From Candidatus Brocadia pituitae (GTDB lineage: Bacteria; Planctomycetota; Brocadiia; Brocadiales; Brocadiaceae), in NCBI GenBank assembly GCA_017347445.1, contig AP021856.1, forward strand, positions 1,992,613-2,056,612: a DNA stretch of 64,000 nucleotides, read 5' to 3'. Of the stretch, positions 19,984 to 37,675 are shown one piece after another. The first letter of the stretch is position 1, and each line of letters begins with the position of its first letter. Position numbers and translations under genes: made by a program. The notes below the pieces were generated by a model. It saw only the letters and a program-made list of their open reading frames with translations. It had not been told where the DNA came from and did not search any database.

Positions 19984-20110
19984 ACATTACGATAAAGGCA
20001 AACCCTGAGTAATCAGGGGACGCAAAGTAAAGGATCTTGCGAGCCGATTAAACAGTGTAAACCGCTTAAACCGTTCAAACGGCTTATAAAAAGACAGCCT
20101 TACTGCCGGA
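19984..20110 (+). ncRNA. c-di-GMP-I (GEMM-type) riboswitch
   Basis: The core reads AAAGGCAAACC, CTGA-GTAA-TCAG, GGGGACGCAAAG: the conserved GGCAAACC and GGGACGCAAAG strands around a short stem capped by a GNRA tetraloop (GTAA), as in class I cyclic-di-GMP riboswitches. The 3' portion ends GACAGCC..TGCCG, as in several GEMM members, and this 3' strand is also the 5' arm of the terminator at 20096-20149. Ligand-dependent termination of the downstream UGA-containing genes is therefore plausible. The second stem region is less typical. Confidence 0.75.
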
Positions 20111-20149
20111 GATGTTTTACAAAATATCTTTGCAGTAAGGCTTTTTTTG
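20096..20149 (+). terminator. Rho-independent terminator (riboswitch expression platform)
   Basis: AGCCTTACTGC pairs perfectly with GCAGTAAGGCT over 11 bp and is followed by a run of seven T. The left arm overlaps the 3' strand of the riboswitch, giving mutually exclusive folds. Confidence 0.85.
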
Positions 20150-20185
20150 TTTTCAACTCATTACTTCTTTGGCAAGGAATGAGAG

Positions 20186-20512
20186 GTGCTTTATGATAGA
20201 CCCCTTCTGCCTTACTCCGTAAAAGTGTATGGAAAGTTGAAATCAGGTGCAACATTCCTCGTCTGCGCATATGGCGACAAGACAACAATCAGATAAATGA
20301 AACTGCAAGGAGCAATTTCACTGCAAGAATTTAAATCAGGGTTACCGTCGTTATCAAAAGATCGGGAGATTGTCTTCTCCTGTGGTTGACTCAAAGAGGC
20401 AAGCGTTGCCGGTCTGGCAGCGGAATTCATAAAGAAGGGATACAAGCATGCAAAGGCCATTAGTGGCGATGTTCCTGCATGGGAAAAGGCGGGCTATCCT
20501 ATTGAACCTTAA
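20186..20512 (+). CDS. Rhodanese-like protein with in-frame UGA, candidate selenoprotein (possibly a pseudogene)
   Basis: The reading frame gives VYGKLKSGATFLVCAYGDK, then an in-frame TAA (20294-20296), then MKLQGAISLQEFKSGLPSLS, KDREIVFSCG, TGA (20387-20389), LKEASVAGLAAEFIKKGY, AISGDVPAWEKAGYPIEP. This is a small single-domain rhodanese; the active-site loop reads C-G-(UGA)-L-K-E-A-S, with UGA two residues after the catalytic Cys. A hairpin with loop GGTCT 21 bases past UGA resembles bacterial SECIS elements. Start taken at GTG 20186. The TAA probably replaces a Gln or Lys codon and either kills this copy or means translation begins at ATG 20297. It precedes the thioredoxin-like gene by 23 bases. 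Confidence 0.6.
20404..20422 (+). promoter_or_regulatory. bSECIS-like hairpin of the rhodanese-like gene
   Basis: CGTTGCC and GGCAGCG pair over 7 bp (one G-U) around the loop GGTCT, 21 bases after the UGA. The E. coli fdhF SECIS has a GGUCU apical loop at a similar distance. Confidence 0.6.
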
Positions 20513-20535
20513 CTTTACTAAGAGGAGGCTAATGT

Positions 20536-21105
20536 ATGGAAAATATAATTACATGGGAAGAGAAGATGGACATGGCATTGTCAAGGGCACAATCTGAGAA
20601 GAAACCCGTGTTACTTGATTTCTTTAACCCGGGCTGAATCGGATGCCAACAGATGGATACAGTTTCGTATCCCGATAAAACAGTTATCGAATTTATCAAT
20701 AATGCTCTCATTCCATTGCGTGCACGCTCTGATGCGCAGCCCCTGGCAACTGATTTTAATCTGAAGTGGACTCCAACCCTGATAATACTTGATACAGAAG
20801 GAAAAGAACACCATAGGACTGTCGGTTTTCTTTCTCCGGAAGAATTAATCCCTTCATTATTGCTTGGTATTGCAAAGGTTCATTTTGATCTGAATGCATT
20901 CAAAGAAGCGCTCACAAGGTTGGAGAAGATTTTGTCTGATTTTCCCAAAAGTAGTTCGGCGCCGGAGGCAACTTACCTGAAAGGGGTATGTTTATACAAG
21001 GATACTAAAAATCCAAAAGGGCTTAAAGAAGCCTATGAACAACTCCAGGCCAGGTATCCTGAGAACGAATGGACAAAGCGGGCATATCCCTATCGGCTTT
21101 TATAG
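20536..21105 (+). CDS. Thioredoxin-like UxxC protein with TPR-like tail, candidate selenoprotein
   Basis: From the ATG at 20536 (preceded by AGAGGAGG, spacing 7-8) the frame runs 189 residues to the TAA at 21103-21105, interrupted only by TGA at 20635-20637. Around it: KPVLLDFFNPG-(UGA)-IGCQQMD. This is a thioredoxin active-site loop in which UGA replaces the first Cys of CxxC, giving U34-I-G-C37. The cis-Pro region KWTPTLIILD follows. The C-terminal third (AKVHFDLNAFKEALTRLEKI onward) is TPR-like. A hairpin with a GU-containing loop starts right after the UGA. Coding quality is equal on both sides of the codon, so selenocysteine is favoured over a pseudogene. The role is probably thiol/selenol redox; the partner is unknown. 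Confidence 0.8.
20638..20676 (+). promoter_or_regulatory. bSECIS-like hairpin of the thioredoxin-like gene
   Basis: Directly after the UGA, GGATAC (20655-20660) pairs with GTATCC (20667-20672) around the loop AGTTTC; outer ATCG pairs with CGAT. The loop G lies 24 bases after UGA, within the range of bacterial SECIS elements. Confidence 0.65.
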
Positions 21106-36804: not shown

Positions 36805-37560
36805 TGGCGTGCCCAGCGAAGGGTAGTGTCTTCTTGCGGGTGGAAGTCCCGTCATGGTAGAAGCCAGAGCCATGTAGCATGGATGGCAGGGGGTGATGGA
36901 AACGTGGCCTTCTGAAGCCCATCGACAAAGTCGGCGTAAGGCCGGTGAGCGAATACCGGGTCGTAACGTACGTGAACGTAGAAGTAGCCTCGTAAAGGTG
37001 TGATTTCGCTGGTCGAGCCTTTCACAAATAGGCGAAGACAGAATTCTTTTGCCATACTGGTTAATAAGGTATAAGGACGGTGACGGGGTATCAGCGGCGA
37101 CACGGATAGAAAGAGACGCAATCAACTGGGGAAGCCCTCCTCGTCCCTGAGAGAAGTATCAGGAGCAAGGTAAGCCTTATAAGTCGAAAGGCGAAGTAGG
37201 CTGACAGGCGAGAGGGTGGCGGATGAGTCCGTAGTAGTGAAGATGGTAAGGACAACATAACCTGACCGGAGCGAAGGGACTCTGCTGTATCTCAAATCTT
37301 TCTTTGGAGGTGAGGTAGGGAAGGATGATAAAAAAAACTTCCATAAGTCTACAGGAACTGAGGGGGAAGATATACAGCAAGGCGAAGACCGATTGACTCT
37401 TGGTCGATTGGTGGATATGCCTTGTTGAGAAGGGAGCAGGAAAGCCGTATGAGGGAAAACCTCACGTACGGTTTGATGTGGCAGGGGATGGAAAAGTACT
37501 ATGGAGAACCTAAACGGGCACAAAGCTGGAAACGGCAGAAACAGTCAAGGAGATACCTAA
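36805..37560 (+). mobile_element. Group II intron with deleted reverse-transcriptase ORF
   Basis: The 5' part GTGCCCAGCGAAGGGTAGTG and following structured region resemble group II domain I. A domain V hairpin is clear at 37442-37475. The usual maturase start is present at 37325 (MIKKTSISLQELRGKIYSKA) but stops after 23 codons at TGA 37394, and domain V follows 45 bases later, so nearly the whole ORF has been lost. The intron ends are approximate: I could not fix the 3' splice site. The RNA may still splice if a maturase acts in trans. Confidence 0.75.
37442..37475 (+). ncRNA. Group II intron domain V
   Basis: AAGCCGTATGAGGGAAAACC followed by TCACGTACGGTTT: the AGCCGUAUG stem, GAAA-type tetraloop and CGUACGGUU arm of domain V, which holds the catalytic metal site. 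Confidence 0.85.
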
Positions 37561-37675
37561 TGCAACTCGCCATTCCTTGACCCTACATTATGGTTGGTGC
37601 CGGATGAAGCTGGGTAGGAGGGGCATTGTGCACTGTGTGTTTCTTTATGGGGACAATTTTTTTATTTTGTTTAAG

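Follow-up and report, generated by a model that had tools for sequence, protein, structure and literature searches.

A thioredoxin-fold gene of Candidatus Brocadia pituitae carries an in-frame UGA at the first position of its CxxC redox motif, and on comparative sequence evidence we consider it, with a probability of about 0.93, a genuine selenoprotein gene with selenocysteine (Sec) at UGA 20635. We infer Sec insertion from the codon, a conserved hairpin behind it, the Sec machinery genes of the same genome, the fold family and the selection acting on the reading frame. In Brocadia the gene is part of a conserved unit, in which a c-di-GMP-I-GGC riboswitch is followed by a TGA-bearing rhodanese gene and then, as the second gene, by the thioredoxin-TPR gene. 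Coordinates in the text and in Table 1 are those of the window, the whole stretch of 64,000 nucleotides that was analysed.

Table 1. Features of the riboswitch, rhodanese and thioredoxin-TPR unit in the window
Feature	Position	Strand	Details
c-di-GMP-I-GGC riboswitch aptamer RF03167	19988..20111	+	60.2 bits
Strong terminator-like hairpin and T-run after the aptamer	20096..20150	+	Fold of 19988-20160, z = −5.25
Rhodanese selenoprotein gene remnant (predicted Cys-Gly-Sec)	20193..20512	+	Two TAA and a 1-nt deletion
In-frame TGA of the rhodanese remnant (CGU motif)	20387..20389	+	TGA in 7/7 aligned Brocadia copies
SECIS-like hairpin of the rhodanese remnant, CGTTGCC-GGTCT-GGCAGCG	20404..20422	+	−10.1 kcal/mol, loop 21 nt after UGA
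Shine-Dalgarno-like AGAGGAGG	20521..20528	+	7 nt 5' of ATG 20536
Thioredoxin-fold/TPR gene, predicted selenoprotein	20536..21105	+	189 residues, Sec34 and Cys37 (UIGC), ATG 20536, stop TAG 21103-21105
In-frame TGA, predicted to be read as Sec, residue 34	20635..20637	+	TGA in 46 homologous genes, Cys in one
Bacterial SECIS-like hairpin GGATAC-AGTTTC-GTATCC	20655..20672	+	6-bp stem, 6-nt loop; conserved pairing

The reading frame is interrupted only at the redox site

The sole in-frame TGA is codon 34, within the motif NPG-U-IGC. The earlier note had described a AGAGGAGG site and a frame open except for a TGA at the redox site, all of which are present in the sequence, and AAGGAG is retained in the alignment of Brocadia orthologues. 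When the TGA is read through, the Pfam domain Thioredoxin_2 is matched across it at 42.1 bits against a gathering score of 27, Thioredox_DsbH and Thioredoxin_7 also match across it, both above cut-off, and TPR_6 is matched above cut-off at the C-terminus (30.7 bits). Genome-wide recoding of UGA was rejected, since other genes of the window end in UGA: TGA closes 4 of the 23 long ATG open reading frames in the 64 kb and is an ordinary stop there.

The TGA might also be a true stop here, leaving a 33-residue product or a protein begun downstream that lacks the active site. The 150-aa frame from ATG 20653 to which the earlier note had pointed does exist, and ordinary gene finders would call it, truncating the gene and dropping the active-site residue. 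By inspection of the sequence, however, no strong ribosome-binding site precedes this ATG, and the homology to full thioredoxin domains runs across the TGA. Given also the conservation and selection described below, termination at this codon is very improbable.

The UGA column and the flanking sequence are conserved

The active-site column held TGA in 46 homologues inspected, down to ~25% identity (the window, L010-L033 with two in L022, L038, L043, L045-L047, L064, L074-L081, L088-L091, L093 and L094). These genes come from Brocadia, Jettenia and other Planctomycetota families and from three other MAGs, with labels including Deltaproteobacteria and Bacillota; the closest named loci are those of Brocadia, 87–90% identical, and of Jettenia, ~80%. 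In a search of 392 genomes of the phylum, additional matches covered the full length, and almost every one of them contained a single internal TGA. Many planctomycete lineages carry the family, and ordinary gene finders would miscall it in each.

A single homologue (L073/L087) has Cys at this column, and it belongs to an organism, G385, in whose genome (93% complete) a search detected neither selA nor tRNA-Sec. This homologue reads KKIITDTLPD after its CxxC and has lost the stretch that encodes the hairpin. Alignment of homologues, which the earlier note had suggested as a check for U/C exchange, thus yielded TGA 46 times, Cys once and no other residue. Both the retention of TGA in 46 genes and the Cys form in a genome without detected Sec machinery speak against a true stop.

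Selection acts on both sides of the codon. Compared with the Brocadia and Jettenia orthologues, dN/dS after the TGA is 0.05–0.15, and constraint extends to the 99 nt that precede it, with dN ~0.07–0.15 against dS ~0.7–2.0; in all close pairs these 33 N-terminal codons are under purifying selection, which again argues against termination at the TGA. The gene thus shows the pattern used to recognize bacterial selenoproteins, an in-frame UGA at a redox position with coding sequence conserved on either side.

A SECIS-like hairpin follows the UGA

Counted from the UGA, the hairpin begins 17 nt and its loop 23 nt downstream; the second loop position is G, followed by U. Among 28 distinct aligned sequences with fixed spacing, 99.4% of the cells of the inner helix are paired, and pairing falls to 14–55% when the partner is slid by 1–3 columns. 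Compensatory changes occur at two pairs: eight sequences have G-C instead of A-U at pair 3, and one has A-U instead of U-A at pair 4. In several of these cases the substitution in one arm alters an amino acid while its counterpart in the other arm is synonymous; one example joins Asp to Gly with TAT to TAC. The third base of codon 44 takes part in the pairing; the codon reads NCG in 13/13 orthologues, and of the 47 fourfold sites only one other has an invariant third base. The earlier note had drawn the hairpin with an additional outer stem, ATCG/CGAT: the inner 6-bp stem is borne out by its compensatory changes, whereas the outer helix was rejected, being paired in 55% of cells against 99.4% for the inner one, and the minimum free energy fold uses its sequence in a different hairpin.

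The case for the hairpin rests on this comparison because the lone sequence is unremarkable: folding of the window sequence gives z = −0.8 to −1.25, close to −1, and an about equally good bSECIS-like hairpin follows 33 of the 2,445 TGA triplets in the window (1.3%). The published bSECIS model sets a limit of minimum free energy ≤ −7.5 kcal/mol (PMC13188914), of which the stem-loop alone falls short at −6.4 kcal/mol; the 46-nt region reaches −8.3 kcal/mol.

The genome encodes the selenocysteine machinery

The genome (4.08 Mb, a single contig) contains all four of the genes for which the earlier note had proposed a search: selA (572 bits), selB (332 bits, or 366.8 with a neighbouring match), tRNA-Sec with anticodon UCA (67.9 bits) and selD, which carries an in-frame TGA of its own in the active site CGGUAGK (L085, C1 3,451,000-3,454,500). 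Among 37 genomes, that of the window and relatives, with tRNA-Sec counted above 59 bits, 22 have both a TGA-bearing homologue and tRNA-Sec, 1 the homologue only, 4 the tRNA only and 10 neither, a co-occurrence with Fisher p = 2.7e-5 among relatives that are not independent of one another. The lone exception, G014, is an assembly of 400 contigs that has part of selA at the end of a contig.

In other systems, insertion of sulfur instead of selenium at Sec UGA codons has been described. Here the UGA could be decoded as Cys by the Sec machinery when selenium is limiting, or else by a UGA suppressor tRNA, and either reading agrees with a codon that is open only under recoding. Against both stand the normal termination of other frames of the window at UGA and the presence of tRNA-Sec together with the SECIS-like hairpin, so that we regard such decoding as highly unlikely. 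The assignment of Sec to residue 34, as the earlier note had it, is well supported by the machinery, the TGA column, the conservation of the hairpin and selection, and neither of the two outcomes that the note had named as refuting it was obtained.

Relation to known selenoprotein families

By its sequence the predicted protein belongs to the UxxC thioredoxin-fold selenoproteins, a kind already known, while its TPR architecture and gene context were not found described. Among the solved structures nearest in sequence are DsbD gamma domains and a putative disulfide isomerase. An AlphaFold2 model from a 10-row alignment is weak (mean pLDDT 62, pTM 0.61), with an order of helices and strands that agrees with a thioredoxin fold and a helical C-terminus.

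Among the 119 families and subfamilies of prokaryotic selenoproteins in a catalogue of 2026 (PMC13188914), none is a thioredoxin-TPR family. The catalogue includes the predicted family 'thiol:disulfide interchange protein' (PF13098, UxxC; representative WP_011366075.1; Table 1 of PMC13188914). The Brocadia protein likewise has a Thioredoxin_2 domain, with PF13098 above its gathering score, and predicted Sec first in UxxC, but it has a C-terminal TPR segment and no evident signal peptide. In an NCBIfam profile search no model reached its cut-off: the VPGUxxT family models NF041383 and NF041382 gave 25.9 bits (cut-off 275) and 19.5 bits (cut-off 350), their motif differing from NPGUIGC, and TsoB (NF045694) scored 47.9 against 805 bits. 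The C-terminal (gamma) domain of DsbD and DsbH fall into a common thioredoxin subgroup with the Brocadia protein, which, unlike them, appears to be soluble, stand-alone and TPR-bearing, with Sec in place of Cys, and lies far under the NCBIfam cut-offs. The Tso operon (TsoA/B/C) also links selenoprotein genes; TsoB, however, joins rhodanese and DsbD-like parts, whereas in Brocadia the rhodanese and thioredoxin genes are separate.

In the literature that we searched, selenoproteins of anammox bacteria went unreported. Sec use in the phylum has been reported in a study of planctomycetes from a red alga (PMC4807772).

A rhodanese remnant and a riboswitch lie upstream

Two linked elements had escaped the earlier note: a rhodanese (pseudo)gene that itself carries a TGA, and the riboswitch. 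The riboswitch also precedes the rhodanese and thioredoxin genes in at least five more Brocadia genomes (L011, L012, L013, L014 and L018), and the terminator-like hairpin after the aptamer is its probable expression platform. In the window the rhodanese is accepted as a pseudogene: it has a TAA at 20220-20222, a 1-nt deletion directly after it and a second TAA at 20294-20296, and its dN/dS is raised to 0.20–0.35. It is intact at L011, L015 and L018, and at L012 it is open over the whole compared stretch, with a first codon other than ATG; its 5' part is replaced at L013 and L014, and only a trace is left at L010. No rhodanese was seen upstream of the Jettenia genes (L016, L017 and L043). The SECIS-like hairpin of the rhodanese has a compensatory pair at L013 (CACTGCC/GGCAGTG). 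Its CxU motif and rhodanese fold are those of the rhodanese-like selenoprotein form 3, NF041203, a CxU rhodanese included in the catalogue (PMC13188914). On the rhodanese, too, every NCBIfam model stayed below its cut-off: NF041203 (rhodanese_LYCAU) is the best match of the intact relatives, which at 65.3 and 67.1 bits remain under its cut-off of 115 bits; the copy in the window, in addition, is broken.

Such a neighbour raises the possibility that the thioredoxin gene is itself a recent pseudogene whose TGA is a nonsense mutation, in parallel with the two TAA codons, the deletion and the raised dN/dS of the adjoining rhodanese. The thioredoxin gene, however, has the identical TGA in every orthologue, in independent assemblies, and no further lesion; its dN/dS against the Brocadia and Jettenia orthologues is low, as given above; and it persists in Jettenia and at L010, where no intact rhodanese was seen upstream. 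On dN/dS and conservation this explanation was rejected, and we give it hardly any credence. Because the neighbouring rhodanese is a pseudogene, this strain may express the unit differently.

Proposed function

In the predicted selenoprotein, the ribosome would insert Sec at UGA 20635 through tRNA-Sec and SelB, directed by the hairpin downstream. By analogy with the DsbD gamma domain or DsbH-type proteins, the product, probably cytosolic, is likely to act as a thiol:disulfide reductase. Sec34 would attack a disulfide or persulfide and Cys37 would resolve the selenenylsulfide, while the TPR segment may dock a partner. The protein could then be reset by the thioredoxin pool of the cell, perhaps fed by a pair of ferredoxin:thioredoxin reductase (FTR) and thioredoxin, although this choice of electron donor is doubtful. 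In the same genome an FTR beta gene adjoins a thioredoxin gene, and downstream of the orthologue in a deltaproteobacterial MAG (L046) lie a frame that resembles glutaredoxin and an FTR-beta gene. The next gene in the Brocadia loci examined is pirin; among the neighbouring genes examined outside Brocadia there was no constant partner.

That the rhodanese precedes the gene in most Brocadia relatives, under one riboswitch, suggests a shared task in sulfane-sulfur or thiol redox chemistry. In this genome the rhodanese has decayed and the probable reductase alone is retained; being kept where the rhodanese is lost, the gene must have a function of its own. The conserved association of the thioredoxin-TPR gene with a rhodanese selenoprotein and with a riboswitch of the c-di-GMP-I type points to a regulated selenium-dependent redox module, whose anammox hosts are organisms central to the nitrogen cycle. 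We tentatively propose, at somewhat less than even odds, that an uncatalogued thioredoxin-TPR selenoprotein family, widespread in Planctomycetota and present in further phyla, forms with the Cys-Gly-Sec rhodanese of Brocadia a two-selenoprotein unit switched by a cyclic-dinucleotide riboswitch, which would place a selenium-dependent thiol/sulfur redox pathway of anammox bacteria under second-messenger control.

Paralogues and other observations

Several other observations were made. First, other anammox genomes (L020-L033, L038 and others) contain another branch of the family, whose N-termini resemble signal peptides and whose motif is FxxPTUTGC or a variant of it; its genes sometimes stand in tandem (L022) and have the same SECIS-like hairpin, and its proteins are probably exported. 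Second, of the secreted paralogue the genome of the window retains just the TPR half, at L082 1257-1571 (C1 about 790,300), which is 59% identical to the C-terminal part of a paralogue, so the signal-peptide paralogue with UTGC seems to have decayed here; G002 (L083) has a similar TPR-only stretch. Third, the window contains group II intron matches (RF02003 and RF00029) at 36834-37586 on the + strand. Lastly, a palindromic stretch at 21579-21663 matches unrelated miRNA models on both strands; it resembles a long hairpin with perfect pairing and may be a small mobile repeat.
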